A stretch of DNA of 33,996 bases from an uncultured Clostridia bacterium (GTDB lineage: Bacteria; Bacillota; Clostridia; Lachnospirales; Lachnospiraceae). A program made the translations under genes and the position numbers. Location of the stretch: the NCBI GenBank assembly GCA_946629525.1, contig CAMOXU010000022.1:1-33996 (forward strand), written 5' to 3'. Shown one piece after another: positions 4,123 through 25,473 of the stretch (position 1 is its first letter; each line of letters opens with the position of its first letter). Under the pieces are notes generated by a model that saw only the letters and a list, made by a program, of their open reading frames with translations, was not told the origin of the DNA and did not search any database.

Positions 4123-4239
4123 ATTGTATCAGTCAGGTCCTTTCCGTTCTTTTCAATTGCTTCATACATAAAGCCGTCTGTTGCAATCTTGCCGGATCCC
4201 TTCCGACAAAATGCAATAGACGGCTTTCTTTTATTGCAT
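4123..4239 (-). promoter_or_regulatory. Regulon promoter A, upstream of the sugar ABC operon
   Basis: Read on the minus strand, with 5' ends given: ATGCAA at 4239, TTGCAT at 4216, TTGCAA at 4186, GAAAAGAAC at 4154, and the -10 hexamer TACAAT at 4128, preceded by TG as an extended -10. Spacings are 23, 30, 32 and 26, the same as in three other promoters of this window. The base pairs 17 upstream of the -10 do not resemble a -35, which fits an activator-dependent promoter. The first box touches the stop codon of the oxidoreductase at 4241. Boxes 2 and 3 also form the inner pairing of a hairpin (4170-4227). Confidence 0.75.
4170..4227 (-). terminator. Hairpin with terminator features upstream of the ABC operon
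   Basis: A perfect 10-bp stem (AAAGCCGTCT 4170-4179 with AGACGGCTTT 4218-4227) encloses a TTGCA/TGCAA helix (4181-4185 with 4212-4216) and a GCCGGA/TCCG helix. It probably ends the transcript of the oxidoreductase upstream, although the T-run on the minus strand is short. The inner helix is made of two operator boxes of promoter A. Confidence 0.55.
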
Positions 4240-4240
4240 T

Positions 4241-5311
4241 TCAGCGATTTTCCGGCACCGTCACGACCATTCCGATCTGGGAAGAGGCCAGCGCCGCAAA
4301 AATCACCCTCATCGACTTCAGAGCCTCCTCTCCCGTACATCTGCACTCTTTTCCGGTCAGAATACAGTCAACGAACTCATCGATGACCCCCGAGTTCATA
4401 GTCTTTCCGGTTCCGACCGTCTGGTCCGTATTGGTCAGCATATGCTCTGTCGCCAGAAAATTCTGTCTGCCGTCGTCTCCCTCCAGGATCAGGCTGTACT
4501 CTCTGTCGTCGTAGCAGCGGACAGCCCCCTTCGTTCCGTGGATGACGGTCGAATTATATTCCACGCCGTAGTCCGTCCAGCTGGCGTGCATGGTTCCGGT
4601 TATGCCGCTGTCCGTACGGTAAATGCACCATGCATTGTCCTCGACATCGATCAGACTTCCGTCCGGATACCGCTTGTCCAGCGTCGCGGTCTGTGCGTAC
4701 ACTTCCGTGATCGGCTCGCCGATCAGATAATGGACGAGGTCTGTCTTGTGGATCCCAAGGTCCGCCAGTGCGCCCATGCCGGCTGCATTCTTTCTGAAGA
4801 ACCAGGTATCCTCCGTCCCGGTCCATATCTCCGGTCCCATGTGTCCGAATTTAGTCTCAAAGGAGAGTACCTTCCCGATCGCCCCCCTTGCGATCAGATC
4901 ATGCGCCTCCTTGTGGGCAGCCGAGAACCTCTGGTTCTGCGCGATCATAAGGAGTTTTCCGGCCTTCTTTGCTTCCTCCACCATGGCAGTACACTTTTCG
5001 ATCGTCACATCCATGGGCTTTTCACAGAGTACGTGCTTTCCCGCCTGCAGTGCGAGGATAGTATCACGCGCATGCATTGCATTGGGCGTGCAGACGCTGA
5101 CAGCATCCAGATCCATCGCGACCAGCTCTTCGACGCTGTCACAGACCACGCCGCCGTACAGCTTCTGCATCTCTTCCGCTTTGCTCCTTGTGCGGTTATA
5201 GAGGGCTGCGATCTCAACGTTCTCATTCGCCGCATATTCCGGCAGATGTCTTCTCACGGAGATCGCGCCGCATCCTATCACACCAATTTTAAGTTTGCGT
5301 TTGGTTTCCAT
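4241..5311 (-). CDS. Gfo/Idh/MocA family oxidoreductase (first of three)
   Basis: This is an NAD(P)-dependent sugar oxidoreductase of 356 residues. The N-terminal Rossmann fold shows GVIGCGAIS (residues 10-18). The family's CEKP motif is at 96-99 with the catalytic Lys98. The C-terminal domain has DLGIH with Asp184 and His188, the usual acid/base pair. I choose the ATG at 5311, with AAGGAGA just upstream; a longer in-frame start at 5347 lacks a site. It follows two related genes in one direction (isomerase, oxidoreductase, this gene), probably on one transcript from promoter B. In C-glycoside pathways such enzymes oxidise the sugar at C3 or reduce the released 3-oxo-sugar. Which step this one performs cannot be decided from sequence. 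Confidence 0.88.
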   Translation of the reverse strand: METKRKLKIGVIGCGAISVRRHLPEYAANENVEIAALYNRTRSKAEEMQKLYGGVVCDSVEELVAMDLDAVSVCTPNAMHARDTILALQAGKHVLCEKPMDVTIEKCTAMVEEAKKAGKLLMIAQNQRFSAAHKEAHDLIARGAIGKVLSFETKFGHMGPEIWTGTEDTWFFRKNAAGMGALADLGIHKTDLVHYLIGEPITEVYAQTATLDKRYPDGSLIDVEDNAWCIYRTDSGITGTMHASWTDYGVEYNSTVIHGTKGAVRCYDDREYSLILEGDDGRQNFLATEHMLTNTDQTVGTGKTMNSGVIDEFVDCILTGKECRCTGEEALKSMRVIFAALASSQIGMVVTVPENR

Positions 5312-5384
5312 ATATTTCTCCTTGAACCCAATCCCGGCATCCTGCATACAGCACTAAAATGCATCTTTCCAGGATACAGCAAAG

Positions 5385-5407
5385 CGGCCGGAAGGAGCTT
5401 CCGGCCG
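5385..5407 (-). other. Strong hairpin between the two oxidoreductase genes
   Basis: A perfect 10-bp GC-rich stem (CGGCCGGAAG with CTTCCGGCCG) closes a 3-base loop. On the minus strand only three T follow, so it may attenuate or protect the transcript rather than end it. No promoter signal is visible in the 172-base gap around it. Confidence 0.6.
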
Positions 5408-5483
5408 TAGCTTGTTTACTTCAGTTTTGAAATACTGCAGGGCCAGACGCAGGGCATTCTGACCCGCAGTAGATGGACATTAT

Positions 5484-6764
5484 TTATTCCGGCTTGTACT
5501 CGTCGAAATCGTAGTGGATCGTTCCGAACGGAGTCTCCTGATCGCGGATCGCGATGGATTTAGCCATCTTCTTGATCTCGTCGACAGTTACGCTGCGGCC
5601 GAGCTCGCTCGAGAGAACAACGCCCTCGGAGAGCAGAGCTGTCTGCATAGCGATGTACGGGGAGTCGATTCTTGTCTCGTCGGTCAGGATGCCGCGAAGG
5701 TAGCTGTACCACTGCAGCTGGTTGTCGTTGTACATCTCCATCTCCGGATGGATCAGGAGCTCCTGCATTCCCGTCGTGTCGCCGATCGCGCAGTCGAGCT
5801 GTGTCTCAAAGAGCTGATTCTCGGAGTTGATGCCGTAGTATGTCAGTCTCGGCTTCTGAAGGTCGCCGCCGCCCATGATCTGGCCGCCTTCCGGAACAGC
5901 CATCGGGCCGCCGGTCTGGTCAACGTCTGTGAACTTCAGGCCGCCGAGGGAACCTGCGATAAAGCTGCATCCGATGTCTTCCATATGGATTGCCCAGTCC
6001 TCATAGATATCCATGCAGATGTCGCCCTTGAAGCGAGCCATACCGACACCGAGGTCTTCGACCGGAGCAGTGCGGTTCGTGATCTTATCAATAGCGGGAT
6101 GTGTCCAGTATCTGGAGCTCTGGAAACCATAGACACTCTCCAGCTCCGGCATGCCGAGGACATAGAGCATCTGGGCAAGGTGATAGATGCCGAGGTCGAA
6201 CAGCGGTCCGTGAACGCCGATGTTCGGGTCGATGAAGTCACGGCTGAAGAACGGCATATCATAGCCCGGACGGCCCTGACGTCTGTGGCCGACGCTGCGT
6301 ACGTGATAGATCTCACCGAGCTTGCCTTCTGCGATCATCTTCTTGGCGATACGTGTCTGCGGGTTGTAGATGGAGCTGATCTGGATCGCCAGCTTCTGGC
6401 CGTACTTCTTCTGTGCGTCATAGAGGATCTTGGCATCCGCATAGCTTGCTGCCATCGGCTTCTCGGAGTAGCACGGGAATCCTGCTGCCATAACTGCGGT
6501 TGCGACGGATGTGTGAAGGTTGTTGTGTACGCAGACTTCGACTTCGTCGATGTCATCTCTCTTGAGCATCTCACGGAAATCCTGATACAGGTTCTCTTCC
6601 GCAATGCCGTACTGCTTGCCCCATGCAAGGAGCTTCTCTTTGTCGATCTCAGCTGCTGCGACAACTCTGAGGTTCTGTCCGCGCTTGTTGAGGTTCTCGA
6701 TAACGGTCATGTGTCTGTGGGAGATCATTCCGCAGCCGATAATGGCGATTCTCAGTTCTTTCAT
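5484..6764 (-). CDS. Gfo/Idh/MocA family oxidoreductase, long form (second of three)
   Basis: This is a 426-residue member of the Gfo/Idh/MocA family, about 60 residues longer than its two relatives in the window. The cofactor motif IAIIGCGMIS is at residues 6-15. The EKP motif is at 101-103 with Lys102 (here SEKP rather than CEKP). The catalytic Asp190 and His195 lie in FDLGIYHL. The extra length falls in the C-terminal domain. AGGAAAGGAA precedes the ATG at 6764. It sits between an isomerase/epimerase and another oxidoreductase in the same direction, a set typical of 3-oxo-sugar pathways. A role in oxidising or reducing a glycoside's glucose at C3 is inference. Confidence 0.88.
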   Translation of the reverse strand: MKELRIAIIGCGMISHRHMTVIENLNKRGQNLRVVAAAEIDKEKLLAWGKQYGIAEENLYQDFREMLKRDDIDEVEVCVHNNLHTSVATAVMAAGFPCYSEKPMAASYADAKILYDAQKKYGQKLAIQISSIYNPQTRIAKKMIAEGKLGEIYHVRSVGHRRQGRPGYDMPFFSRDFIDPNIGVHGPLFDLGIYHLAQMLYVLGMPELESVYGFQSSRYWTHPAIDKITNRTAPVEDLGVGMARFKGDICMDIYEDWAIHMEDIGCSFIAGSLGGLKFTDVDQTGGPMAVPEGGQIMGGGDLQKPRLTYYGINSENQLFETQLDCAIGDTTGMQELLIHPEMEMYNDNQLQWYSYLRGILTDETRIDSPYIAMQTALLSEGVVLSSELGRSVTVDEIKKMAKSIAIRDQETPFGTIHYDFDEYKPE

Positions 6765-6841
6765 GATAGTTCCTTTCCTGAAATCTATATGTATTTATCT
6801 GTATCTGGTTCACTGTTCACGGTCCCGTCCGCGAGACCTGT

Positions 6842-6888
6842 CGGGGATCCGGGGCGGCATGAGCCGCCATTCCCGGATCGAATCCCCG
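6842..6888 (-). other. Long intercistronic hairpin
   Basis: A nearly continuous stem of about 17 bp has an inner helix GGCGGC/GCCGCC (6853-6858 with 6863-6868), a middle helix GATCCGG/CCGGATC (6846-6852 with 6873-6879) and an outer CGGG/CCCG, closing the tetraloop ATGA. A second small stem (GCGGC/GCCGC, 6897-6912) lies nearer the isomerase gene. No T-run follows on the minus strand. It is probably an RNA stabiliser or processing site between the isomerase and the oxidoreductase. Confidence 0.65.
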
Positions 6889-6927
6889 TATATCAGGCGG
6901 CATAAAAGCCGCTCAAAAGGTTCTTCT

Positions 6928-7767
6928 TTACCAGCCGAGGATCTTCAGATACTCGCGGCTTCTTCTTGCGCACTCCAGCGGATCCAGTTCATAGTGCTCA
7001 TCCTGCTCTACGATGACCCACTTGGATCCTGCCTCAAGACCTGCCTCAAGGATCGGCTCCCAGATCATCTGACCAAAGCCGACTGCGCGGAGACCGAAGT
7101 AGCCTGTGTCTTCTTCGGACTCTTCTTCGTCGATGCCGATCAGCTTGTACATGTTCTTGACCTCACCCTTCTTGATGTAATCCTTGAGGTGGATCACCGG
7201 GATGCGGCCTGTGTACTTCCTGATGAAGCCCGGAGCATCGCCCGTCGCGACGTCGCACCAGCATGTGTCAAGCTCAGGCATCAGGTTGTCGTGCGGGATG
7301 GATGCGAACATCACATCGTAGCCCCACTGTCCGTCTTCCATCTTGACGAACTCGAAGTCATGGTTGTGATACAGGAAGGTCATGCCTGCGTCGTGGATCT
7401 TCTTGCCGACTTCGTTCAGCATGGGAAGGAACTTCTTAAAGCCTTCCGGATTGACCGGGCGATACTCTTCTGCCATATAAGGCATTACCAGGAACTTAAC
7501 GCCGATCTTCTTGTAATCCGCGATGATAGTGTCGAGATCTTCCATCATCTCAGCGAATGCGACGTGTGCGCTGATCGGGATAAGGCCGATCTCGTCCAGC
7601 ACTTCTTTGACATACTCAGGAGTAAGGCCGTAGAGACCAGCCAGCTCAACGCCGTCATAGCCCAGATCCTTTACCTGCTGCATTACGTTCTTAAAGTTCT
7701 CCGGAGTATTCTCAAGGAGATCTCTGAGGCCGTAAACCTGGATTCCAACCGGAAGCTTCTTGCTCAT
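6928..7767 (-). CDS. Sugar phosphate isomerase/epimerase family protein (TIM barrel)
   Basis: This is a 279-residue xylose-isomerase-like TIM barrel (AP_endonuc_2 family). The putative metal ligands and active-site residues are in YHNHDFEF (133-140), Asp167 in LDTCW, His193 in HLKDY and Glu254 in VEQDEH. The YHNH and HLKD motifs are shared with YcjR- and IolE-like enzymes that act on 3-oxo- or inosose-type sugars. The start at 7767 follows GGGAGGAA; an upstream in-frame ATG (7854) would add 29 residues with no homologous character. It is first in a three-gene group with two Gfo/Idh oxidoreductases and is preceded by regulon promoter B. It differs from the two deglycosidase-type barrels in this window in that no DUF6379 gene is attached. 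A role in handling the released 3-oxo-sugar is likely but unproven. Confidence 0.85.
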   Translation of the reverse strand: MSKKLPVGIQVYGLRDLLENTPENFKNVMQQVKDLGYDGVELAGLYGLTPEYVKEVLDEIGLIPISAHVAFAEMMEDLDTIIADYKKIGVKFLVMPYMAEEYRPVNPEGFKKFLPMLNEVGKKIHDAGMTFLYHNHDFEFVKMEDGQWGYDVMFASIPHDNLMPELDTCWCDVATGDAPGFIRKYTGRIPVIHLKDYIKKGEVKNMYKLIGIDEEESEEDTGYFGLRAVGFGQMIWEPILEAGLEAGSKWVIVEQDEHYELDPLECARRSREYLKILGW

Positions 7768-7881
7768 TTTTAATTCCTCCCTTTCTACATGCATATTGTT
7801 CTTATACTGCGGATCCCGGCTCATTTGAAACTGTTCGGGCCCTTTCCGCTGCATCTTCGTATTGCTTTTGTTGCTGTATAT

Positions 7882-7998
7882 ATAGTATCTGTTTTTTTTA
7901 TTTCATTCTTTTCCGGGTTTTTAGTTTGCGGCACATCTCTTGCAGGTTCATAGCCCCATTTCAAGTCCCTTGCAATAAACAACCTTCTTTTATTGCGC
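7882..7998 (-). promoter_or_regulatory. Regulon promoter B, upstream of the isomerase-oxidoreductase group
   Basis: Minus-strand 5' ends: GCGCAA 7998, TTGCAA 7975, CTGCAA 7945, GAAAAGAAT 7913, -10 TACTAT 7887. Spacings are 23, 30, 32 and 26, identical to promoters A, C and D. Boxes 1 and 2 extend into an inverted repeat GCAATAAA/TTTATTGC. No good -35 hexamer lies 17 bases from the -10. Confidence 0.78.
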
Positions 7999-8011
7999 CT
8001 GTATTGCACAA

Positions 8012-8040
8012 GCCGACGCCCGGGAGGTTCCCGGGGCGGC
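8012..8040 (-). terminator. Hairpin downstream of the DUF6379 gene
   Basis: The arms CCCGGGA and TCCCGGG, extended by GCCG/CGGC, make a stable stem starting a few bases after the DUF6379 stop codon. The T-run behind it is poor (TTGTG), so termination may be partial. The rest of the 278-base gap holds regulon promoter B. Confidence 0.5.
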
Positions 8041-8045
8041 AGCTC

Positions 8046-8477
8046 TTATACGATGATCATCTTTTCCCTGGTGTATGTCCCTCCGTTGAAGGAACGGTCA
8101 TCGCCATCCTCGTCGAACTGATCGAGGAACGGCGGCATATAGGAGCAGCTGGCTGCAAATCGAACAGAGACATCGTGGAAGCCCTGCGCGAGACCGCCTT
8201 CCTTCATGATCTTCAGTGTGGCCACATCCGTGATCCTCCAGAAATCTTCACTTGCCTCCGCCAGCTCCTGCACGGTGTAATCCTTCCCGCCGATCTCCCA
8301 GATCACTTCCTCCTTGGGATAGGTGACGCCGTCGACGATTACCTTTCCCGGACGCAGCTGGGACAGCCAGATGCCGCGGTAATAGTCTGACCGGACACAG
8401 ATCTGGAAACCGACTGCTTTGCCGTCTTTTTCGATATTATGAAATCCTCTGTACTGAATAACATTTGATTCGAGCAT
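8046..8477 (-). CDS. C-glycoside deglycosidase beta-subunit family protein (DUF6379), copy 1
   Basis: This is a 143-residue protein of the DUF6379 family, the small beta-sandwich subunit of C-glycoside deglycosidases. It shares with the second copy in the window the motifs YYRGIWLSQLRPG (residues 32-44), GGLAQGFHD and SYMPP, and a C-terminal basic strand ending MIIV. In the characterised enzymes this subunit packs against the TIM-barrel subunit and helps shape the active site; alone it has no known activity. AAGGAGG precedes the ATG at 8477. It lies 72 bases after the matching TIM-barrel gene (8550-9413) in the same direction, as expected for two parts of one complex. The family call is firm. 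The substrate is inference. Confidence 0.87.
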   Translation of the reverse strand: MLESNVIQYRGFHNIEKDGKAVGFQICVRSDYYRGIWLSQLRPGKVIVDGVTYPKEEVIWEIGGKDYTVQELAEASEDFWRITDVATLKIMKEGGLAQGFHDVSVRFAASCSYMPPFLDQFDEDGDDRSFNGGTYTREKMIIV

Positions 8478-8549
8478 ACTTACCTCCTTGATTCTCTCCT
8501 GATCAAAGCGCCGTGCGCTGTTCTTCCTGCGTGTACCTGACTGTCCGGA

Positions 8550-9413
8550 TCAATATCCGAGAATACGCTTCATCATAACGTGCTGCTTGCGGAGCTCCTG
8601 GGAGACATATCCGGGAACATCCTTGTTTGCTCCCTCGTACTCGCTCAGAAGGTATCCTTCCCAGCCGTGCTCGACAAGGATCTTAAGAATTTCCGGATAC
8701 GGGATCGTCAGCTCGTTGAAGTCGTCGTCCATCTTGTTGAATTTGGCATGTATGCACTTTACATACGGAAGGAGTCTTATGATCTCCTCCGGCTCTGAGT
8801 GCTTGCAGTCCGGATTGAAGACCACGACGCCGGGAACGTCAAAACGGTTCTGGAAGACGGAGAGGTCAATGTTCAGTCCGAAATTCTTTGTGCCGGTCTC
8901 CTCGATAAAGTCCACATAATCCTGTACGAACTGATCTGCCAGTACGGTGGTCAGGTGGATCTCGGGACACATGATCACGTCATACTTCTCTGCCTCCGGC
9001 AGGACACTCTTAATGATCTCTCTCCAGTTCTCCACCGGGGCCAGCTCATCATTGATAACGCCCATCTTGGTGCGCAGGATCCTGAAGCCGAGGCGATGCG
9101 CGATCTTAAAGTCGTTGATCAGCTTCTCTCTGGCTTCCTCCAGAGACATGTCTCTGTTCTTATAGAGTCTTGTATCTATCCAGTGACCGTACTCGACAGG
9201 CTCGATCCCGTATTTATTGCAGAGATATTCCCACTTTGCCACATATTCCTCGGAGAGTTCCGGATAGCTGTCGATATGGGAATTTGCCAGGATCTCGATG
9301 CCCGTCGCGCCCATATCCTGCATATCCTTGAAGCAGTCCTCCAGGTTCATCGTGCGGCCGTATTCACCAGAATAGCTGTAGATGGCCACGCCCCTCTTTA
9401 CCTTTTTGTCCAT
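8550..9413 (-). CDS. C-glycoside deglycosidase alpha-subunit-like TIM barrel, copy 1
   Basis: This is a 287-residue xylose-isomerase-like barrel paired with the DUF6379 gene 72 bases downstream. Counted from the chosen start, the likely metal-binding set is Glu151 (CPEIH), Asp183 (LNIDLSVF), His222 (CIHAKF) and Glu258 (LSEYEG), all conserved in the second copy. In the DgpBC/CarBC complexes the barrel subunit uses a divalent metal to cleave the C-C bond of a 3-oxo-C-glycoside, releasing the aglycone and an anhydro-oxo-sugar. The start is the ATG at 9413 because AGGAG stands just upstream; the in-frame ATG at 9431 has none. It follows the esterase gene by 55 bases. The alternative, a plain sugar isomerase, is less likely given the attached beta subunit. 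Confidence 0.83.
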   Translation of the reverse strand: MDKKVKRGVAIYSYSGEYGRTMNLEDCFKDMQDMGATGIEILANSHIDSYPELSEEYVAKWEYLCNKYGIEPVEYGHWIDTRLYKNRDMSLEEAREKLINDFKIAHRLGFRILRTKMGVINDELAPVENWREIIKSVLPEAEKYDVIMCPEIHLTTVLADQFVQDYVDFIEETGTKNFGLNIDLSVFQNRFDVPGVVVFNPDCKHSEPEEIIRLLPYVKCIHAKFNKMDDDFNELTIPYPEILKILVEHGWEGYLLSEYEGANKDVPGYVSQELRKQHVMMKRILGY

Positions 9414-9468
9414 AACACTTCTCCTTTTCATTGCCGTTCATAACTATAAGTTTTTTCGATGTTTTCTG

Positions 9469-10503
9469 TCAGATATTTGGTATCTTCCCCAGCGCCTCAT
9501 TCATGGCGTCCAGTTTGTCCGTATCGATCCCTCTCTCAATCAGAAGATCCCGAAGCGTCATCTTGCCGAGTGCCTGCATCATATCGTCAAATGTCATTTC
9601 CGGTGTGAACGGCGTGATCTTCTCCCGCATTTTCGCTATCGTTCCCGAAAGCGCCTCCCTGGCTTTGGGATTTCCGTAAATGCGTGAGATACTGCAGTCA
9701 AGACTCAGCCATGCCAGGGCATCGTCATTGACATGGGCTCTCAGCGCAGGCTTCATCAGCCCTTCATTTCCGAAATCCCCGAAGAGGTCATGCAGCCAGG
9801 CGATGCTGTCCTCCACCCATCCGGATCCTCTTACCGGAAACCTTGTCTCGCAGCTCTGCACAGAGTGATCACCTGTGGAAAATCCATGCGGGCCGTACGC
9901 ATAAATATGGCACTCGAACGTCGTATGGTACCGGTTCAGGGCATCCAGCATATCGATCGTATTCTGAATCGGGACTACACTGTCCGTCCTTGTCGCGAAC
10001 AGAAAGCAGGGGCAGGTATTCTCATCCACACGCTCCGGAATTCCGGGCATAGCCTGCCCTATTTCCAGCGCTGTCTCCTCCCTGAGCACAGGATAACCGA
10101 GGATCGCCGCTGCCGGACGGGGCGTTCCCATCGTCGCGGCCGCACCGGCGAGATGACCGCCGGCCGAGAAGCCGACCACGGCGATCTTATCCGTCATCAC
10201 ATGCCATTCCTCCGCCTTCCCCGCAATATATTCCATCGCCTGTTCATAATCCAGGAGAGGCTGCGGCCACTTACTGTATTCTCCTACGGAGTAGCGGAGG
10301 ATAAACGCGTGGTATCCCGCCTTCATGAATGCGAACGCGACGGGATCCGCCTCCCGGTCAGAGCAGAACTGATATCCCCCTCCGGGGAGAACGAGTACCG
10401 CAGGTCTTGCGGTTATTCCGCGGAACTCTCCTCCGACTCCCTGGATCATTGCTGTTAAAGTTACGTTTCTCTCTTCGGACAGTGTAATAAATTCCTGATG
10501 CAT
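9469..10503 (-). CDS. Alpha/beta-hydrolase carbohydrate esterase
   Basis: This is a cytoplasmic serine esterase (BD-FAE/acetyl-xylan-esterase-like) of 344 residues. The oxyanion motif LPGGGY is at 39-44. The nucleophile is Ser113 in GFSAGG. The acid is Asp174 in TRTDSVVP and the base is His206 in GPHGFS, the complete triad in the expected order. A helical tail of about 100 residues (roughly 245-344) follows the hydrolase fold; I do not recognise it from a well-characterised enzyme. There is no signal peptide. GGAGG precedes the ATG at 10503. It lies between a Gfo/Idh oxidoreductase and the first deglycosidase pair. A job removing acetyl or other acyl groups from imported glycosides before oxidation fits this position but is inference. 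Confidence 0.85.
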   Translation of the reverse strand: MHQEFITLSEERNVTLTAMIQGVGGEFRGITARPAVLVLPGGGYQFCSDREADPVAFAFMKAGYHAFILRYSVGEYSKWPQPLLDYEQAMEYIAGKAEEWHVMTDKIAVVGFSAGGHLAGAAATMGTPRPAAAILGYPVLREETALEIGQAMPGIPERVDENTCPCFLFATRTDSVVPIQNTIDMLDALNRYHTTFECHIYAYGPHGFSTGDHSVQSCETRFPVRGSGWVEDSIAWLHDLFGDFGNEGLMKPALRAHVNDDALAWLSLDCSISRIYGNPKAREALSGTIAKMREKITPFTPEMTFDDMMQALGKMTLRDLLIERGIDTDKLDAMNEALGKIPNI

Positions 10504-10586
10504 ATATTTCCTCCGGTCACATCCTGATCACTGAAACTTCCCGTTATCTGCTTATCAAATTCCTGATTTATACCTGTGCACAATGA

Positions 10587-10622
10587 AAAGATCCCGGCCC
10601 CCGCGAAGGAGCCGGGATCTTT
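10587..10622 (-). terminator. Strong terminator-like hairpin between oxidoreductase and esterase genes
   Basis: A perfect 12-bp stem (AAAGATCCCGGC with GCCGGGATCTTT) closes a 12-base loop and runs into TTTTC on the minus strand. It begins 9 bases after the oxidoreductase stop codon. The esterase and first deglycosidase pair have no recognisable promoter of their own behind it, so partial read-through from promoter D is the simplest view. Confidence 0.8.
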
Positions 10623-10631
10623 ACCGGTCAA

Positions 10632-11702: not shown

Positions 11703-11756
11703 GTGTTCCCTCCTTTTATATTGATTTTACGTGAATCGAATTTTTCTGATAGTACT

Positions 11757-12206: not shown

Positions 12207-12228
12207 CAGGAACGCCTCGGCGTTCCTG
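12205..12228. repeat. Intergenic palindromic repeat, perfect copy
   Basis: TT is followed by arms CAGGAACGC and GCGTTCCTG around the loop CTCG, a perfect 9-bp stem. It lies 12 bases after the stop of the second DUF6379 gene. Matching copies are at 18491-18514, 28470-28493 and 28508-28531, all in the same orientation. Confidence 0.8.
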
Positions 12229-12239
12229 TCGTGACCTGA

Positions 12240-16662: not shown

Positions 16663-16685
16663 AAGATACCTCTCTTATATAGAAT

Positions 16686-18191: not shown

Positions 18192-18343
18192 ATTTCTTTC
18201 CTCCTTTGATTTGCGCTCCGGTTCTCCCCTTCCTGCGGCAGATCCCTTCGTCGGATCTGTTGTCCAAAGCGCGTGAAGATATCACTGTGCGGGTCATCGA
18301 CCCTTTTTTCGGAAACAACACAGGATACTTAACAACTGCATTA

Positions 18344-18431
18344 ATTATCTTTTTTTAAGCACTTTTCCGATACTGTTTAACTGCCACATTCTCTTCCGTT
18401 CCTTGCAAAAAAGGATGAAACACCGTTGCAT
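18344..18431 (-). promoter_or_regulatory. Partial regulon-type operator upstream of the symporter gene
   Basis: A 23-base-spaced pair, ATGCAA (5' end 18431) and TTGCAA (18408), matches boxes 1 and 2 of the six regulon promoters. A third box and the GAAAAGAAT box are not found at the conserved distances. A GATAAT hexamer at 18344-18349 could serve as a -10. It may be a degenerate regulon member or a different arrangement. More TTGCAA-like words lie at 18465-18470 and 18485-18490. Nothing else is visible in the gap from 18192 to 18490. Confidence 0.35.
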
Positions 18432-18490
18432 CGCGAAAGGAATAGACCTTTTTTCTGCTCTTTTTTGCAAACTGAAATTTCGTTCTGCAA

Positions 18491-18514
18491 TTCAGGAACG
18501 CCTCAGCGTTCCTG
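18491..18514. repeat. Intergenic palindromic repeat, perfect copy
   Basis: This is the same element as at 12205-12228: TT then arms CAGGAACGC and GCGTTCCTG, here with loop CTCA. It lies 24 bases beyond the stop of the GH43 gene, again just after a minus-strand gene end. Confidence 0.8.
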
Positions 18515-18537
18515 CCGTATCGCGCGATGAGGTGCGA

Positions 18538-20169
18538 TCAAAGGTCCTCATACTCCGACCAGCAAAACAGCGCGCTGTTTCCGGACTTTTCTCCGTTTCC
18601 GCTGGCAAAGAGCGCAAGAACTTCTCCCACCATGCAGCCCACTTTCTCGGGATTGATGACAGCTCCGTCCGCACAGGCGAGTTCACGGAGCCCGTCTTCC
18701 CCGCTGCCATAGCGGAAGACATAGCGGTTCTCGTGAAGTTCCGTCTCGAGGATGATCTCCTCTCCTTCAAACGGCGCGGACGCAAGGATCGTCCGGTTCG
18801 TCGTCGACGTAAAGCCCGGGAAATACGGCTGCAGATCGTAATCCGCAGTGAACTGTACCAGCCGGACGACGGTCTTTCCGTCTTCGCAGCCAAGCTCCAG
18901 ATGCAGCTGATGGTTCATGGCCTGTACGATCGCGATCCCCGCGCAATCCTTCCCCCGCGGCACAAAGCGCATCCTGCAGGCGAAACGGCAATTCGGCTCG
19001 AGGCGTCTTCTGCAGACGAAGGCAAGAGAGTTGTTTTCCGGTCTCTTTGTTTCCATGGACAGAGGGCGAAGCGGATCCTGCGGCGCTTCCGGAATGCACG
19101 GAAGTGCAATTCCTTCCTCCGTACGGATCAGATATTTTTCGCCGTCGCTCCCCCAGAAGGACCAGGCAGGGCCGAGCTTTTCGCCTTCAAATTCGTCGCG
19201 CACCGGCTTCTTTTCCACCGGGAACCACGCGCTGCCCTCAGGAAGGGGATATTCCCACTCCACTTTGCCGGTCTCCTGCGTAAAGAGCGGCCACTCATCC
19301 TCCCATACCACAGGTACGATGAAGGTCTCTCTCCCCAGATTCTTGCTGACACCGCCGATCAGGCGGGACGCAAGGAATACCGCATACCAGTCACCGGCAT
19401 CCGTGCTTACGAGATCTGCATGCCCGGCGTTCTGGATCAGGGCCTTTTTCCCCATGTGCCGCATGGTAAGGATCGGATTGGAGGGGTTTCCCTCGTAGAG
19501 ACCGAGCGCCGAACGGCTTCTCGCGATCGTGGCACTGTGATACATTTCCGTACCGCCCTCCGCGATCAGCAGATAATACCAGTCTCCGATATGATAAATG
19601 TGTGGTGATTCCGGCGAAGCGACGCCCGCCATCGCGCCTCCCCACAGGGCAGTCGGTTCGGAGATCAGGCGGAAGTTCTCAATATCATATTCGGCCGCCC
19701 AGATTCCCTGCCGCATCCCGCCTTTTCCGTCCGGCCAGATATCGGCCGTTCCCATGATGTAGCATTTCCCGTCCGTGTCAAAAAAGATCGATGCATCGAT
19801 TCCGGGCACGTCGTCAAGGAAATGAGGTGCCGACCAGGGTCCCGCCGGATCCTTCGCCGTGACGATGAAGTTGCCCCGGTCGCTGAAATTGCAGTTAATA
19901 ATGTAGAATGTCCCGTTGTAATAGCGGATCGTCGGAGCCATGACGCCTCCGTTGCCCGTATTCTTCTCCACATAGAAGCCATTCTGCGGTGTCAGCACAT
20001 AGCCCAGCTGCTCCCAGTTCGCAAGATCCTTGCTGTGGAAGATCGGAAGGCCGGGGCTCAGTTCAAAACTTGAGCAGACAAGATAATAATCATCTCCCGT
20101 CCTGCAGATGGACGGATCCGGATAGAATCCCGGGATGATCGGGTTTTTGATCGTCCTGCTCATTGTCAT
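18538..20169 (-). CDS. GH43 family glycosidase (beta-xylosidase/arabinofuranosidase type)
   Basis: This is a five-bladed propeller glycosidase of family GH43 with a C-terminal beta-sandwich, as in XynB-type beta-xylosidases. The three acidic residues are in place: Asp18 (FYPDPS, base), Asp125 (GIDASIFF, pKa modulator) and Glu187 (SPESPH, acid). Residues from about 330 to the end form the C-terminal domain. At 543 residues it has the normal length for this type. No signal peptide is present, so it acts inside the cell on imported oligosaccharides or glycosides. Two ATGs, 20169 and 20163, share an AAAGGAGAGG site and either could be used. It follows the GH3 gene, with a long hairpin but no promoter motif between them. 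Confidence 0.88.
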   Translation of the reverse strand: MTMSRTIKNPIIPGFYPDPSICRTGDDYYLVCSSFELSPGLPIFHSKDLANWEQLGYVLTPQNGFYVEKNTGNGGVMAPTIRYYNGTFYIINCNFSDRGNFIVTAKDPAGPWSAPHFLDDVPGIDASIFFDTDGKCYIMGTADIWPDGKGGMRQGIWAAEYDIENFRLISEPTALWGGAMAGVASPESPHIYHIGDWYYLLIAEGGTEMYHSATIARSRSALGLYEGNPSNPILTMRHMGKKALIQNAGHADLVSTDAGDWYAVFLASRLIGGVSKNLGRETFIVPVVWEDEWPLFTQETGKVEWEYPLPEGSAWFPVEKKPVRDEFEGEKLGPAWSFWGSDGEKYLIRTEEGIALPCIPEAPQDPLRPLSMETKRPENNSLAFVCRRRLEPNCRFACRMRFVPRGKDCAGIAIVQAMNHQLHLELGCEDGKTVVRLVQFTADYDLQPYFPGFTSTTNRTILASAPFEGEEIILETELHENRYVFRYGSGEDGLRELACADGAVINPEKVGCMVGEVLALFASGNGEKSGNSALFCWSEYEDL

Positions 20170-20318
20170 TCCTCTCCTTTCATTCTTAATGCGGCCGGTC
20201 AAGTGCGAAACTGTGTGCTGTATGATAATTGTGCTGCCATTCAAACAATTTCATTCCGCACAAAGTTCCGCAAATTCCGCCCTAATGTGACCGGTGATTT
20301 TACATCGCTTTCCTGATT

Positions 20319-20374
20319 GCGTGGCCGCGATCCGCCGGAGACTTTCATCTCCGGAGCGATTCGCTTCCCCACGC
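20319..20374 (-). other. Long imperfect hairpin between GH3 and GH43 genes
   Basis: GCGTGG (20319-20324) pairs with CCACGC (20369-20374), and the centre CCGGAG/CTCCGG (20335-20340 with 20349-20354) closes the loop. The middle is imperfect. No T-run follows on the minus strand. It begins 8 bases after the GH3 stop codon. The remainder of the gap to the GH43 start shows no regulon motif. Confidence 0.5.
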
Positions 20375-20381
20375 GGCAGGA

Positions 20382-22583
20382 TCAGAATTTTACGGTAATC
20401 TCCGCCTGCATCAGGTCTCTCGAGTTGCCGCCCGCGTAAATTCTGAAGAGACCGTCCTCCAGACGGTATTTTCCTTCATTGTCCCAGAAGCCCATCTCTT
20501 TTTTGGGAAGCGCGAAGAGGACCTCTTTTGTCTCTCCCGCAGAAAGATGCACTCTCTCGTATCCCTTGAGCTCTCTGACCGGACGCACGAGGCTCGCCGT
20601 GACATCCTGCATGTAGAGCTGGGCGACTTCAACGCCGTCCCGCTCACCTGTATTAGCCACTTTCACGCGGATCTCCAGGTGATCCTCCTTCTCCTCCACG
20701 GCGAGATCGCTGTAAGCGTATGTCGTATAACCGAGGCCGTATCCGAAGGGGAAGAGGGCTTCCGCAGGCGCATCCAGATATTTGGATGTGAATTTGCTCT
20801 TTCCCGCAGGTCTTCCCGTGGAAGGATGATTGTAATAGATCGGGCACTGTCCGTTCACATACGGGAAGGATGCGGAAAGCTTCGCGCTCGGCGCTGCATC
20901 CCCGAAAAGGATCCTTGCGACTGCATTTCCCATCTGTATTCCCAGATGCCAGGCCTCGACCATGACCGGGAGATGCTCCGCCTCCCACCCAAGAGCAAGC
21001 GGTCTTCCGTTCATGAACACCGTGACGACCGGCTTTCCGGATTCCATGAGCTTTGCGAGCATCTCTCTCTGTCTGCCGGGAAGCGTGATATCCGCTTTGG
21101 ATGAGGCCTCACCGGACATCGCCGTGGTCTCCCCGACGATCGCGACGATCACGTCGCCGTCCGCGCATGCTGCCGCCAGCTCCTCCTCATTCAGGTTCCC
21201 CTCCGGACCGCCGCAGGGATAATAAGCGATCTCCGCGCCGGAATTCTTAAAGCCGTCCAGGATCGTGACGCAGTCCTCTTTCTTCCATCCCATCGCCCAG
21301 GCGCCGGTCACCTCATCCGCGGAATTCGCCAGAGTGCCGACCAGGCTGATCTTCTTCTTTTTGTCAAGCGGCAGGATATTTCCCTCATTCTTCAGAAGGA
21401 CGACCGATTCCTCCGCCGCCCTGCGCGCCAGCGCCGCATGTTCGGCCGGGATTCCCTTTTCATAGGCTTCGATGACTTCCTCCGGCACGTAGGGATGCTC
21501 GAAGAGGCCCAGCCACACCTTGACGGAGAGGATCCTTCTGACTGCCTCGTCAATCACCTCCAAAGAGACCTTCCCGCTCTCCACCGCTTCCTTCAGGTGA
21601 TCCTTATAGATATGCGTTCCCATATCCATATCCATTCCCGCAATTGCCGCCTGTATGCCTGCGTCCGCATCGTCCGCCGCGATTCCGTGAATGACGCATT
21701 CCTTGATCGCGTTGGCGTCGCTCACGACGAAGCCGGAAAGTCCCAGCTCACCTTTCAGGACATCGCGAAGCAGATACTTATTCACCGTACAGGGGACCCC
21801 GTTCATATCGTTGAAAGCCGCCATTACCGTTGCGGCGCCTTCCTCCATGGCTGCCCGGAACGTCGGCAGGTAGACATTGTAGAGCTGCGACGTGGACATG
21901 GATGTCGTATTATAGTCCCGTCCGCCCTCGCAGGCACCGTAGCAGATGTAATGCTTGGTGCAGGCTGCCACATAGTTTTCCGCAGAGGAGGTATCCCCCT
22001 GCAGTCCGCGGATCTTGGCCCGGGCGAATCTGCTTCCCAGATACGTATCCTCACCGGGTCCTTCCGAGACGCGTCCCCAGCGGGAATCGCGGGCAACATC
22101 GATCATGGGCGCGAAATTCCAGCTGATGCCGTGCGCTCTGGACTCCTTCGCGGCCATGCGCGCCGTCTCCGTAAGCAGCTCGTCGTCAAAGGATCCTGCC
22201 TCCGCGATTGCAATGGGAAATACGCTGCGAAGACCGTGGATCACGTCAAATCCGATGATTAGAGGAATCCCGAGCCTCGTCTCTTCAACAGCGATCTTCT
22301 GCAGCTCGTTCGCTTTCCTCGGGTCATTGCCCATGACTGATCCGACCAGTCCCGCCCGGATCTCCTCCTCGTGAAAATCCTGTTTGGCCGTAGACATGAG
22401 CCGCTCAAACTCCTCCTGAGGAAGCCTTCCGTCCGTGAGCATCTCGATCAGCTCCGAGAACGGCACGTCAAACCCCCCCACGATAGAGGGAGATTCCTGA
22501 TTCATCTGCCCGATCTTCTCCTCAAGCGTCATCTGTGACAGGATCGATTCCACTTTTTCCCGCTGTTCATTCGTAAGCTTCAT
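20382..22583 (-). CDS. GH3 family beta-glycosidase (beta-glucosidase/xylosidase)
   Basis: This is a 733-residue, cytoplasmic three-domain GH3 enzyme of the BglX kind. The TIM barrel carries the nucleophile Asp289 in FVVSDANAIKE (Ala follows instead of the more common Trp) and the substrate-binding KHY at 210-212. The alpha/beta sandwich holds the likely acid/base Glu492 in SGEASS. A fibronectin-III-like domain (about 640-733) ends the protein. GGGGGAA precedes the ATG at 22583. It is the first gene behind regulon promoter F. It probably removes beta-linked glucose or xylose, for example O-linked sugars on a flavonoid or disaccharide. Exact specificity cannot be read. Confidence 0.9.
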   Translation of the reverse strand: MKLTNEQREKVESILSQMTLEEKIGQMNQESPSIVGGFDVPFSELIEMLTDGRLPQEEFERLMSTAKQDFHEEEIRAGLVGSVMGNDPRKANELQKIAVEETRLGIPLIIGFDVIHGLRSVFPIAIAEAGSFDDELLTETARMAAKESRAHGISWNFAPMIDVARDSRWGRVSEGPGEDTYLGSRFARAKIRGLQGDTSSAENYVAACTKHYICYGACEGGRDYNTTSMSTSQLYNVYLPTFRAAMEEGAATVMAAFNDMNGVPCTVNKYLLRDVLKGELGLSGFVVSDANAIKECVIHGIAADDADAGIQAAIAGMDMDMGTHIYKDHLKEAVESGKVSLEVIDEAVRRILSVKVWLGLFEHPYVPEEVIEAYEKGIPAEHAALARRAAEESVVLLKNEGNILPLDKKKKISLVGTLANSADEVTGAWAMGWKKEDCVTILDGFKNSGAEIAYYPCGGPEGNLNEEELAAACADGDVIVAIVGETTAMSGEASSKADITLPGRQREMLAKLMESGKPVVTVFMNGRPLALGWEAEHLPVMVEAWHLGIQMGNAVARILFGDAAPSAKLSASFPYVNGQCPIYYNHPSTGRPAGKSKFTSKYLDAPAEALFPFGYGLGYTTYAYSDLAVEEKEDHLEIRVKVANTGERDGVEVAQLYMQDVTASLVRPVRELKGYERVHLSAGETKEVLFALPKKEMGFWDNEGKYRLEDGLFRIYAGGNSRDLMQAEITVKF

Positions 22584-22633
22584 AAAAATTCCCCCTATGC
22601 GTCGTATTTGCTGCGGACAGCATTTCTGCTTAC

Positions 22634-22761
22634 ATTTTACAGAAGAACCATACCTGCATTCTTTTCAGCAGTTCTGAAAGGGACTCTATCATTTGCAACC
22701 GATGAGCCCTTTTTCAGATAAACAAAGAACGGCTGCAACAAACATTCTTACTTTGTTGCAG
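22634..22761 (-). promoter_or_regulatory. Regulon promoter F, upstream of the GH3 gene
   Basis: Minus-strand 5' ends: CTGCAA 22761, TTGCAG 22738, TTGCAA 22698, GAAAAGAAT 22666, -10 TAAAAT 22639. Spacings are 23, 40, 32 and 27. As in promoter E, boxes 1 and 2 are the arms of an upstream terminator stem and the second gap is 40 rather than 30. Confidence 0.75.
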
Positions 22762-22764
22762 CCG
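22717..22764 (-). terminator. Terminator after the AraC-GH39 gene
   Basis: A perfect 13-bp stem (22730-22742 with 22752-22764) closes a 9-base loop; on the minus strand TTCTTTGTTT follows. It lies about 150 bases beyond the AraC-GH39 stop codon, and its arms contain operator boxes 1 and 2 of promoter F. Confidence 0.75.
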
Positions 22765-22785
22765 CTTTCATGATTCTTATTTTGT

Positions 22786-22875
22786 TTTATCTCAGTGTGA
22801 GAAGCCCCCCACTTCATAAGTAGCAGTTTATGACCAATTTGTCTCAGTGGGGGTCCAATCTCCCGCTGAGATAAA
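22786..22875. repeat. Nested palindrome of about 90 bp, MITE-like or structured RNA
   Basis: Three concentric inverted repeats are present: TTTATCTCAG/CTGAGATAAA (22786-22795 with 22866-22875), CCCCCACT/AGTGGGGG (22806-22813 with 22846-22853) and TCATAA/TTATGA (22814-22819 with 22828-22833). A further CTGAGACAAA word on the minus strand lies near 22837-22846. It stands between the AraC-GH39 stop and its terminator. I cannot match it to a known element. Confidence 0.6.
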
Positions 22876-22914
22876 CGCTCCGCGAGGATGTGCAGGCGCT
22901 TCGCGATCGTCTGC

Positions 22915-25314
22915 TCAGTTTTTATAAATATGCAGCAGCACCACTTCCTGAGGATCCAGCTTCACCTTGAGAGCCATATTCCTCTGCGCATCCGTCGCCA
23001 CCCGCTCCATCTCGATCCGGGGCACGCTGATCGCCTGCAGATACTTGACATCATCCCGGTTCAGCTTCGTCTCATACCCCAGCCTTCCCCACTCATCCAG
23101 AACGCTTCCGCTCTGTCTGTTGAGAGATCTTTTCTTGATCGTATATTCTCCTTTTTCCGGCATCCCCTTCAATATAAATTCCATCTCCAGCCTCCGCTCG
23201 TCGTCAAAACGGATCTGCCGGATCCTGTCAAGACCGATCTCATCATTATTCTCGGCCCGATTCGGCTGGAACCAGCAGAAGTTAAAGCACAGAAGATAGA
23301 GGTCGCCGTTCCCCTTCTTGGTCAGAAGATAATGATCGCCCTTCGCAAGGAACTGGCTCCCCATGTGTTCTAAGAATGAAAATGCGTAGAATGCCGGCTT
23401 CGGGATCGTATCCTTGGTCAGAAGCCCGATGCCTCCGTTCAGGACCTTATTCGTATCGATGTGGCTGCTGACCCAGTCCGTTCCGCCCATGACGACCATC
23501 ATATCGGTCATGCCCCAGAGCTCCACGGTCTTCGCCGTCAGATAAGCGGACCTGAAGCAGCTGTCATTTAAGTAGTTCCTGTTCCCGATCGAATTGTTCC
23601 ACTCCGACAGGAACAACCTGCAGTCTCCCAGACCCACTGTCTCCATCAGCTTTTTCATCTGACGGACCCGTTCCTCCTCAAAGTGCAGGTCAGCCGCTGC
23701 GACCCTCTTCATCGACTCTCCCTGTGAATCGTTCACCGCCTCATACGGGTACAGGAAAAAGGATACGAAATCCGGGCGGTAATTCTCCTCTGTACATTTT
23801 TTAAAGAACTTCTCGGCAAAGTCCCGGTCCACTTCAATGACTGTCGAGATTCCTCCGAACAGCGCGCCGGGCACCTTCTCGCGAATCGCATCGTATGCGG
23901 TCTTCCAGGCGTCAAAGAAGTCATAATTATTGTCTTCGTAGAGTCCGTTCTCCTGTGTGTGGAAATCCCGCGTGAGTTCAAAGATCCACCCCGCGACTTC
24001 CTCGATCCCGTACCGGGTGATTACATTGTCGAGGAATGCCCGCAGGATATCCCTCCAGATCCTCGCAGAGGCAAAATGAATATATTCTTCTTTATAATAG
24101 ACTTCTTTTCCCTGGGCCCGGATCGCCGTATCCGGTCTTCTCCCCAGATCCAGGAAAGGTCTCAGGTGATGCACCACCATAAAGTCCAGCACCTGATTGA
24201 TCATGTCAAAATTATACTGTCCGAGCGTCTCTCCGTCCGAGACCAGCATCTTCTCGGAGAAAATATTCCATACTCTGATATACCTGTAATGCAGATGCTC
24301 CTGAAGATACATTACATGGAACTGTGTGTTGGCCCTGCCGAGCTCATGCAGGCTCCCGACATTGATGCACCGGTTCCAGACCGGTGTATAGGAGGCGGGA
24401 CTCAGCTCGCTCAGATTCAGGTCATATTCCTTCCTGTTGTCCTGCCGGCTGTACTGATATCCCTTTCTGCGCAGCTCTTCCCGGATCTCCTGCTCGTCCC
24501 GGATCTCCTTCTCCTCGTTCTCCTTTGAGACCTGATACTTTTTCCTGTATTCCGACGGCATCATGCCGGTCACTTTTTTAAAAGAGCGGTTAAAGGCAGC
24601 AGATGTCGAAAACCCGCAGTTCATGGCGATCTGCGTCAGATTCTGCTCCGATGTCCGCAGAAGCCCCAGCGATGTGCGGACTCGCAGACGCATCACATAG
24701 TCCGCAAAATACATGCCCGTGCTTTTCTTAAAGATCCTGGACAAAGTCGACGTCGATACATACATCTCATCAGCAAGGTCCGAGAGACTGATCTCATCGT
24801 GAATGTGGTTGATGATATACTGCATCATCTGCCGCATTCTCGCATCCGTGTCGTTCGCGTCCGCCTCGATCTGTCCCTGTCCCAACTGATAATTCTCGAT
24901 CAGGCAGTCCAGAAGTCTCAGCATCAGGCTGTCCATCGCTGCGCGCGTCTGGTGCGTATGCAGAATGTACTCTGCTGTCATTTCCTGCAGGATCTCACGG
25001 AGGTCATTGTAAGAATGATGAACGTCCCTGGCGGAATCCGCATACAGCATCAGGCTCTTCTTATCCATGATCTGTGAAATGATCCCGATAGAATAAGATG
25101 CCGTTCCGTAAATCGCTTCCCTGTAAGTGCCGATCCCGTATTCCATACCGGAATTGATCAGAAGGATATCATCCTTCTTCATGCGGATCTTATCCCCGTA
25201 GTATCTGACGCTCATCTCTCCTTCCAGAACATAGAGAACTACAGGATCCGTCTGCATAAAGCTTTTCTCCGAACCGGCCCTGACTATCTTGTATTCCAAA
25301 TGATTAAGTCCCAT
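22915..25314 (-). CDS. AraC-family regulator fused to a GH39-like domain
   Basis: This 799-residue protein has an AraC-type cupin sensor part (about 1-140), two helix-turn-helix motifs (about 171-260, ending PSEYRKKY), a charged, probably coiled-coil linker (261-285) and a GH39 xylosidase-like barrel with a beta-sandwich to the end. In active GH39 enzymes the acid/base Glu sits in FEVWNEP. Here the matching stretch is FELTRD (445-450), with Asp for Glu and Arg for Asn, while the nucleophile-like Glu571 in LSEWN is kept. The domain therefore looks like a sugar sensor rather than an enzyme. The start is ATG 25314 with GAGAGG upstream; an ATG at 25338 lacks a site. Regulon promoter C precedes its own gene, so it is the leading candidate activator, with autoregulation (inference). 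Confidence 0.87.
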   Translation of the reverse strand: MGLNHLEYKIVRAGSEKSFMQTDPVVLYVLEGEMSVRYYGDKIRMKKDDILLINSGMEYGIGTYREAIYGTASYSIGIISQIMDKKSLMLYADSARDVHHSYNDLREILQEMTAEYILHTHQTRAAMDSLMLRLLDCLIENYQLGQGQIEADANDTDARMRQMMQYIINHIHDEISLSDLADEMYVSTSTLSRIFKKSTGMYFADYVMRLRVRTSLGLLRTSEQNLTQIAMNCGFSTSAAFNRSFKKVTGMMPSEYRKKYQVSKENEEKEIRDEQEIREELRRKGYQYSRQDNRKEYDLNLSELSPASYTPVWNRCINVGSLHELGRANTQFHVMYLQEHLHYRYIRVWNIFSEKMLVSDGETLGQYNFDMINQVLDFMVVHHLRPFLDLGRRPDTAIRAQGKEVYYKEEYIHFASARIWRDILRAFLDNVITRYGIEEVAGWIFELTRDFHTQENGLYEDNNYDFFDAWKTAYDAIREKVPGALFGGISTVIEVDRDFAEKFFKKCTEENYRPDFVSFFLYPYEAVNDSQGESMKRVAAADLHFEEERVRQMKKLMETVGLGDCRLFLSEWNNSIGNRNYLNDSCFRSAYLTAKTVELWGMTDMMVVMGGTDWVSSHIDTNKVLNGGIGLLTKDTIPKPAFYAFSFLEHMGSQFLAKGDHYLLTKKGNGDLYLLCFNFCWFQPNRAENNDEIGLDRIRQIRFDDERRLEMEFILKGMPEKGEYTIKKRSLNRQSGSVLDEWGRLGYETKLNRDDVKYLQAISVPRIEMERVATDAQRNMALKVKLDPQEVVLLHIYKN

Positions 25315-25356
25315 ACAAACCTCTCTTCGCCCAAACATGATTCTTTCAGTTTATAT

Positions 25357-25473
25357 ATCATAGACTCTGTCCGCACTTAATTCTTTTCTGTCGTCCCCTT
25401 ATCCTCTTCATTCCGTGCAAAATATCCGGTCATCCTTCGAACATTTGCAACAAAAACCCCGCGTTTATTGCAG
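25357..25473 (-). promoter_or_regulatory. Regulon promoter C, upstream of the AraC-GH39 regulator gene
   Basis: Minus-strand 5' ends: CTGCAA 25473, TTGCAA 25450, TTGCAC 25420, GAAAAGAAT 25388, -10 TATGAT 25362. Spacings are 23, 30, 32 and 26, identical to promoters A, B and D. A regulon site in front of the regulator gene suggests autoregulation. Confidence 0.78.

Follow-up and report, generated by a model that had tools for sequence, protein, structure and literature searches.

What switches on the genes of a plant-glycoside locus in a gut bacterium, and which protein reads the signal? The locus lies in a stretch of 33,996 nucleotides, here called the window, on contig CAMOXU010000022.1 (C22) of an uncultured member of the Lachnospiraceae (assembly GCA_946629525.1, here G000). 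G000 is a metagenome-assembled genome (MAG) of 2.73 Mb that is 82% complete and comprises 163 contigs. A first-pass annotation described six minus-strand promoters in the window (A to F), each with three TTGCAA-like boxes, the element GAAAAGAAY and a −10 hexamer at fixed distances. The bacterium probably turns on its plant-glycoside-degrading gene set through this repeated, rigidly spaced pattern, and the reader of the pattern is most likely an unusual activator with a worn-out-looking sugar-cutting enzyme as its sensor. In the full explanation that we prefer, at a probability of roughly 0.8, the six sites would be sigma-A promoters that depend on an activator and make up one regulon; the protein bound to them would be AraC-GH39 (22915–25338), which joins an AraC-type DNA-binding domain to a domain of glycoside hydrolase family 39 (GH39).

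Six promoters in one catabolic locus

All 30 element positions assigned to the six promoters hold the expected elements. Successive 5' ends are spaced as described, by 23 bases, then 30 (A–D) or 40 (E, F), then 32, and finally 26 (27 in F). The promoters, with the 5' ends of their elements (full extents for A), the genes behind them and the related genomes holding orthologous sites, are as follows; operon extents were inferred from gene order and strand.

4123–4239, minus strand: promoter A; box 1 4239–4234, box 2 4216–4211, box 3 4186–4181, GAAAAGAAC 4154–4146, −10 TACAAT 4128–4123; precedes genes for a sugar-type binding protein, an ABC protein and a permease (4090 to 174); orthologous sites in G412, G454 and G455.
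7882–7998, minus strand: promoter B; box 1 7998, box 2 7975, box 3 7945, GAAAAGAAT 7913, −10 TACTAT 7887; precedes a TIM-barrel gene (AP_endonuc_2, 6928–7854) and two GFO/IDH/MocA dehydrogenase genes; orthologous sites in G412 and G455.
25357–25473, minus strand: promoter C; box 1 25473, box 2 25450, box 3 25420, GAAAAGAAT 25388, −10 TATGAT 25362; precedes the AraC-GH39 gene; orthologous sites in G412, G446 and G455.
11757–11873, minus strand: promoter D; box 1 11873, box 2 11850, box 3 11820, GAAAAGAAT 11788, −10 TAAAAT 11762; precedes genes for a GFO/IDH/MocA protein (10632–11702), an esterase-like protein (BD-FAE), a TIM barrel (AP_endonuc_2) and CGDB (C-glycoside deglycosidase beta); orthologous sites in G412, G455 and G456.
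13726–13852, minus strand: promoter E; box 1 13852, box 2 13829, box 3 13789 (40-bp class), GAAAAGAAT 13757, −10 TAAAAT 13731; precedes a TIM-barrel gene (AP_endonuc_2, 12775–13647) and a second CGDB gene (12240–12698); orthologous sites in G412 and G455.
22634–22761, minus strand: promoter F; box 1 22761, box 2 22738, box 3 22698 (40-bp class), GAAAAGAAT 22666, −10 TAAAAT 22639; precedes a GH3 gene (20382–22583) and a GH43 gene; orthologous sites in G412, G446 and G455.

The gene families preceded by sites (CGDB beta subunits, TIM barrels of the AP_endonuc_2 type, GFO/IDH/MocA, GH3, GH43, ABC and MFS transporters) are those of C- and O-glycoside catabolism, the substrate being judged from the families. 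All six promoters precede genes of this one locus. The annotation had also noted that no site precedes the housekeeping genes on the right. Sites are found at this locus only, but the first gene on that side (25707–27248) is GH35/42-like and not a housekeeping gene. The −35 regions had been called poor, in agreement with a sigma-70 consensus scan of 4000–14500 and 18000–26000 that called no promoter at A–F. The invariance claimed for GAAAAGAAY holds within the window, where its first eight letters are identical at all six sites; among relatives the GAAAAGAA element varies.

A strict pattern (GCAA-N17-TTGC-N27..37-YGCA-N27-GAAAAGAA), for which we estimated a chance expectation of about 1e-4 in G000, matched this genome six times, each match being one of A–F, and the reversed control pattern gave none. 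The regulon is therefore local in this assembly and the pattern beyond chance; equally good matches elsewhere in the genome, which would have spoken against a regulon, did not appear. A scan for box 3, GAAAAGAAY and TANNAT with one mismatch allowed returned five matches, all of them window sites; F was missed owing to its 27-bp spacer. In 397 genomes sampled from the family, two of them from the genus, the strict pattern matched its own genome only. Genome specificity, gene kinds and the conservation of orthologous promoters reported below support the proposed local, co-regulated catabolic regulon with activator-type promoters.

Conservation of the spaced elements and of the palindrome

Sites in related genomes were collected by a genus search (42 genomes), a genome-contig scan (27 stretches), inspection of promoters by gene order and a weight-matrix scan. 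They amount to 25 sites in seven genomes: six each in G000, G412 and G455, three in Oribacterium sp. KHPX15, two in G446 and one each in G454 and G456. All six orthologous sites are retained both in G412 (MAG RGIG5770, sheep ileum) and in G455 (MAG RGIG4446, roe deer omasum). TANNNT follows box 3 after 58 or 59 bp at every one of the 25 sites. The distance from box 2 to box 3 is 30 (16 sites), 29 (2), 40 (6) or 41 bp (1), with none between; the two classes lie one helical turn apart, and orthologous sites retain their own class. Invariance at pattern positions is partly a consequence of how sites were selected. The exact pattern did not select six of the 25, which came from gene order or from a less strict scan; in these, boxes 1–3 are recognisable and TANNNT is present, while GAAAAGAA varies in four (GAAAAGCA, GAAAAGAG twice, GAAAATAT). 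Such selection does not apply to the columns conserved outside the search pattern, namely TTTR before box 2, ATG at +9, RAAAC at +23 and the −10.

In the genome-contig scan, whose pattern left out the −10, this hexamer was present at all six newly met Lachnospiraceae sites of exact spacing versus none of five in other organisms. Ten of the 27 stretches hold 13 accepted sites. Among the 17 without an accepted site, eight were inspected and none had a correctly placed TANNNT; the other nine all have inexact spacing. The relaxed genus search yielded 22 rows, of which 14 combined full spacing with a −10 and eight did not have box 1 and −10 together, one of the latter (G413) showing 40-bp spacing, a poor box 3 and no −10. 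One of the 14, in G442, was considered doubtful and left out of the 25. A matrix trained on 19 sites gave the 25 sites and the G442 site 31–85 bits in the scan of loci. The next best match reached 20.7 bits, and three shuffles (two-base blocks, our own design, one strand) none above 8. Since the training sites were among those scored, this shows separation and is no independent test. Opposite-strand matches (e.g. + 25468 in the window, + 9552 in L130) were set aside as artefacts of palindrome symmetry.

Since the six copies share one locus and some words of flanking sequence, they might be recent duplicates of one cassette, alike by descent and not by constraint. The sequence between the boxes, however, is mostly unlike among the six window sites while boxes and spacing are kept, and C and F aligned with their G412 orthologs diverge more outside the boxes than within; such an origin seems very improbable. 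A different division of the elements would assign GAAAAGAAY-N17-TANNNT to promoters of an alternative sigma factor and leave only the TTGCAA boxes to an activator. GAAAAGAAY does lie where a −35 element would, and no block is better conserved, partly since it was included in the search pattern, yet it is degenerate (GAAAATAT, GAAAAGAG, GAAAAGCA) or absent where palindrome, box 3 and −10 persist. We consider this division improbable; the TANNAT scan of G000, having included box 3, does not bear on it.

Boxes 1 and 2 had been described as an inverted pair, and they form a 27-bp palindrome, TGCAAYAAA-N9-TTTRTTGCA. One correction to that description is that the palindrome of E and F is at the same time a strong RNA hairpin, with a T-rich stretch behind it. 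Hairpins were judged by single-strand folding, as the terminator scan (loops of 3–8) does not cover long-loop stems. Terminator-like folds were obtained at E (z −8.1), F (−5.2) and two Oribacterium sites (−6.2 and −7.4), with T-rich tails at E, F and the Oribacterium AP2 site, and comparable stems were seen by eye at G455 E and G456 D. In some copies the palindrome is thus part of a terminator-like stem that follows the preceding gene. These stable hairpins would suit a reading of boxes 1 and 2 as mere intrinsic terminators of the upstream genes, with regulation by the part from box 3 to −10 alone. Folding at A, B, C and D, however, is close to that of shuffled sequences (z −1.0, −1.8, +0.4 and +0.6), and still these sites retain the sequences of the boxes, the spacing of the arms and the interval to box 3. 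Because it is conserved even at sites of unremarkable folding, the palindrome appears to be kept as a DNA sequence, and a purely terminator function is unlikely. A riboswitch or other known RNA was considered and rejected, as the window contains no Rfam match at the gathering threshold.

AraC-GH39 as candidate regulator

22915–25338, minus strand: AraC-GH39, candidate regulator, 807 aa; cupin-like N-terminus (by eye), HTH_18 at residues 188–266, C-terminal GH39 domain at 317–780.

AraC-GH39 contains the double helix-turn-helix DNA-binding domain of the AraC/XylS family (HTH_18, 79.2 bits; cut-off 33.6), and its C-terminal part belongs to GH39 by sequence (PF01229, 131.6 bits; 1px8, E 8.4e-36). 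Its best NCBIfam match is AryK (NF047455, 159.2 bits, residues 33–398), far below the curated cut-off of 850. The WNEP acid/base motif of active GH39 enzymes reads T-R-D-F in the window protein, and the nucleophile Glu is kept (SEWN). In the family alignment, 38 of 39 rows extend over the acid/base region and none of these has an aligned NEP; a single row has Glu in the corresponding column, in different surroundings, and for one row or more a different alignment would be possible. The nucleophile position is Asp in seven of 38 rows. From another set of 32 rows, two were dropped as non-members. Several other positions of the domain are invariant across 18 family members. The domain would accordingly appear catalytically inactive, and the combination of TRDF, a kept Glu and invariant positions fits a sugar-binding sensor. 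Of the 397 Lachnospiraceae genomes sampled, 38 contain relatives of the protein with an E value of at most 1e-30, no more than two candidates having been scored per genome.

The first-pass annotation had named no regulator. The architecture is linked to AraC-GH39 genes, and AraC-GH39 is the likely regulator on account of an Oribacterium gene run, a genus-wide association with the palindrome and the protein tree. The three Oribacterium sites fall within a gene run (L130:4510–17502) whose sole DNA-binding regulator is an AraC-GH39 protein, 45% identical to that of the window. Ten further open reading frames checked in the fetched stretches include one gene for a GntR regulator, which lies outside the run at a distance of about 6 kb, next to phosphotransferase system (PTS) and amylase genes. 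In the genus-wide search the palindrome (YGCAAY-N15-RTTGCR) matched G402, G408, G409 and G419 once per genome, never more than about 70 bp from an AraC-GH39 gene; the proteins concerned are only about 26–34% identical to the window protein. At AraC-GH39 loci lie five of eight matches in G000, four of five in G412, two of five in G446 and one of four in G450, giving linkage in eight of the 16 genus genomes that have AraC-GH39. The 26 genus genomes without AraC-GH39 at the threshold used contain 0–7 palindrome matches each (counts only). The distant palindromes (G402, G408, G409, G413, G419 and G448) are followed by a TGCAA-like box 3 at 27–30 and a −10 at 58–59 bases. The G409 site scores within the shuffle range, whose maximum was 25.2 in ten shuffles (two-base blocks, again of our own design); L035 scored 23.6, inside that range. 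In G450 the contig ends too early for box 3 and −10.

In a tree of 39 AraC-GH39 proteins, 12 palindrome-bearing members clustered in one clade of 15 (support 100/97), and the palindrome label changes three times on the tree versus 10.5 in shuffles. The exceptions in the clade are the sisters G000:C2 and G455:C90 and also G448:C62, which is cut by a contig end. In every one of the 15 clade members the first recognition helix has the form xSxSxxSRxF, and in 21 of the 24 other rows it is of the LSNGYLSRFF or PQY type; no palindrome of their own was seen for LSNGYLSRFF-type proteins in the stretches read. Five loci from five other genera, with proteins about 33–42% identical, show the architecture, three by a matrix model fixed beforehand and two by eye. 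The model scored G230 at 46.8 bits, two sites in G380 at 41.7 and 35.5, and G374 at 42.6, the last without TANNNT. In G029 and G322, seen by eye (G322 after a further pattern search), the palindrome arms are 22 apart and not 23, box 3 follows at 29 and 30, and both have TATAGT at +58; in G322 there is, in addition, GAAAAGAAG. Among ten more distant loci only L202 exceeded 27 bits (34.1).

Several observations weigh against AraC-GH39 as the reader of the sites. The other eight genus genomes with AraC-GH39 gave no pattern match there, two of them (G413 and G448) having variant palindromes visible only by matrix or eye. For the sister proteins G000:C2 and G455:C90, the stretches read contain no palindrome. 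Conversely, the full-spacing G442 site (L067:16094, within L067:16050–16165, G442:C145; GAAAAGAAC, 44.9 bits) precedes an FMN reductase/FAD-binding gene pair, and no AraC-GH39 was found in this genome, which is 100% complete; nor was one found in G454 and G456, which carry a site each and whose loci are cut by contig ends. A search of G448 (86% complete) gave no convincing GAAAAGAA site despite a partial AraC-GH39 protein (60%) with near-identical recognition helices. The idea that GAAAAGAA strictly co-varies with the second recognition helix had been considered and is contradicted by G322, where the element is present together with a different helix.

Another local regulator might read the sites, AraC-GH39 being merely a target gene. 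The chief candidate is encoded close by.

27481–28308, plus strand: second AraC-family gene, without GH39 domain (family search).

Its product has a ligand-binding domain, and homologues lie beside the locus in G412 (69%), G455 (66%) and G374 (49%). No homologue was found, however, in the fetched Oribacterium stretches L130 and L131, which hold three sites; the palindrome accompanies AraC-GH39 genes in G402, G408, G409, G419, G448 and G450, and a different conserved block (about 27392–27465) lies upstream of the second AraC gene. We regard this assignment as unlikely. For AraC-GH39, in turn, the status of candidate regulator is well supported, and the conserved regulon code is real.

Besides that of the window, G000 contains a second AraC-GH39 protein (L033:12626–15109, G000:C2) that is 41% identical, has nearly the same first recognition helix and carries Asp at the nucleophile position; no palindrome was seen near its gene in the stretch read. 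Six other genus genomes (L134–L138 and L141) contain a neighbouring pair of AraC-GH39-like genes beside CGDB and TIM-barrel genes, and one protein of each pair has no recognisable second HTH helix in the alignment. Such pairs might form heteromeric regulators. At the C-glycoside deglycosylation loci with paired genes (L134–L139, and the pair in L141) no palindrome scored above 14 bits.

Proposed mechanism and relation to known systems

Binding, the role of each box and the ligand are predicted as follows. With a transcription start assumed about 7 bases after the −10, box 3 begins near −70 and RAAAC near −47; GAAAAGAAY covers about −38 to −30, and the palindrome has its centre near −109 or −119. 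Box 3 (TTGCAA...ATG, about −70) and RAAAC...GAAAAGAAY (about −47 to −30) would be two tandem AraC half-sites arranged like I1 and I2 at araBAD, the proximal one standing in for the missing −35 element; they are about 21–23 bp apart and not alike in sequence. The palindrome, some three or four helical turns further upstream, would offer the same protein an inverted pair of half-sites, either for cooperative binding or for keeping the promoter silent as long as ligand is lacking. The degenerate GH39 domain, the cupin-like N-terminus or both may sense a plant glycoside or the product of its oxidation; this ligand would turn AraC-GH39 to activation, while promoter C would close an autoregulatory loop on the AraC-GH39 gene. 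AraC tolerates an extra helical turn between half-sites, and araBAD has further upstream operators.

Relative to the −10, the geometry of all 25 sites is that of an araBAD-like class II promoter, with a proximal site overlapping a poor −35 and a −10 of sigma-A type. The araBAD I2 half-site is located at −35 to −51 and overlaps the −35 (PMC11434276), and AraC-type dimers can bind direct repeats thanks to flexible linkers (PMC9723621); for these reasons we propose that activation works through box 3 and GAAAAGAAY as tandem sites and that the palindrome serves as an auxiliary inverted pair. The system thus resembles AraC/araBAD of Escherichia coli in its regulator family, the proximal half-site overlapping −35 and the distal half-site upstream. 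In contrast to araBAD, it has TGCAA half-sites, an inverted upstream pair at 29–30 or 40–41 bp, six copies per locus and a fused GH39 domain. AryK and Rsp of Staphylococcus (NF047455, NF033869) are likewise long AraC-type proteins, but they act in other organisms on other targets, and the excerpts of PMC3922988 and PMC7241556 mention no glycosidase-like domain and report no conserved sequence in Rsp-bound regions. The GH39 beta-xylosidases (1px8, 2bs9) share with the window protein the family match of residues 317–780 and the nucleophile Glu; the window domain, known from its sequence, differs in having T-R-D-F for W-N-E-P and in its fusion to a cupin-like and HTH part. With the DgpABC/CGD clusters for C-glycoside deglycosylation (strain PUE, Catenibacillus) the locus shares CGDB, AP_endonuc_2 and GFO/IDH/MocA genes. 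In the open-access literature, as far as its text was available, no description was found of a regulator or promoter of these clusters, of any regulator of gut C-glycoside deglycosylation or of a fused AraC-GH39 regulator, whereas a regulon code and a regulator are proposed here.

A GH39-labelled gene annotated as an AraC regulator has been surmised to be a possible enzyme (PMC4730625). Catenibacillus genomes contain 21 and 28 GH39 genes, numbers called rare, and C. scindens was negative for activities including beta-glucosidase and xylosidase (both PMC11170127). On balance we lean towards a wider view, in which proteins joining AraC to a catalytically dead GH39 domain would be recurring glycoside sensors of Lachnospiraceae. 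One clade of them would read a promoter code, consisting of a 27-bp TGCAA palindrome, at times merged with a terminator, followed by TTGCAA and a −10 at fixed helical distances, before operons for uptake and deglycosylation of C- and O-glycosides. Part of the puzzling abundance of GH39 that has been reported for C-deglycosylating gut bacteria would then reflect regulators and not enzymes. This suggests that some GH39 enzymes in surveys of carbohydrate-active enzymes (CAZymes) are transcription factors, the connection to Catenibacillus being our reading of PMC11170127. It would also provide a specific candidate regulator and a readable operator code for gut C-glycoside deglycosylation, and the code should mark operons for plant-glycoside catabolism in uncultured Lachnospiraceae.

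Three further features of the locus deserve mention.

18200–18440, minus strand: possible seventh, divergent site upstream of an MFS transporter gene (16782–18191), with a box 3-like TTGCAAGGAACG and GATAAT.
27392–27465: conserved block between the GH35/42-like gene and the divergent AraC gene 27481–28308.
14026–16662: gene for a conserved 878-aa protein.

The region of the seventh site is common to three species (18200–18440 in the window, L066:8824–8980 and L128:17690–17850), which share TTGCAAGGAACG, GTTAAA, TATCG and GATAAT. It is without GAAAAGAA and weak in the window itself; in G446 (L066:8846, behind GH43 at a contig end) it scores 35.9 bits and the palindrome is present. The block at 27392–27465 is conserved with G412 and G455 (ATTAAGAATTT.A.ATG.TTATTAATAT.CTAAGATTG) and is possibly the operator of the second AraC gene itself. 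The 878-aa protein, conserved in the locus, has a sub-threshold GH106 match (19.6 bits, cut-off 29) and possibly represents a rhamnosidase-like family.

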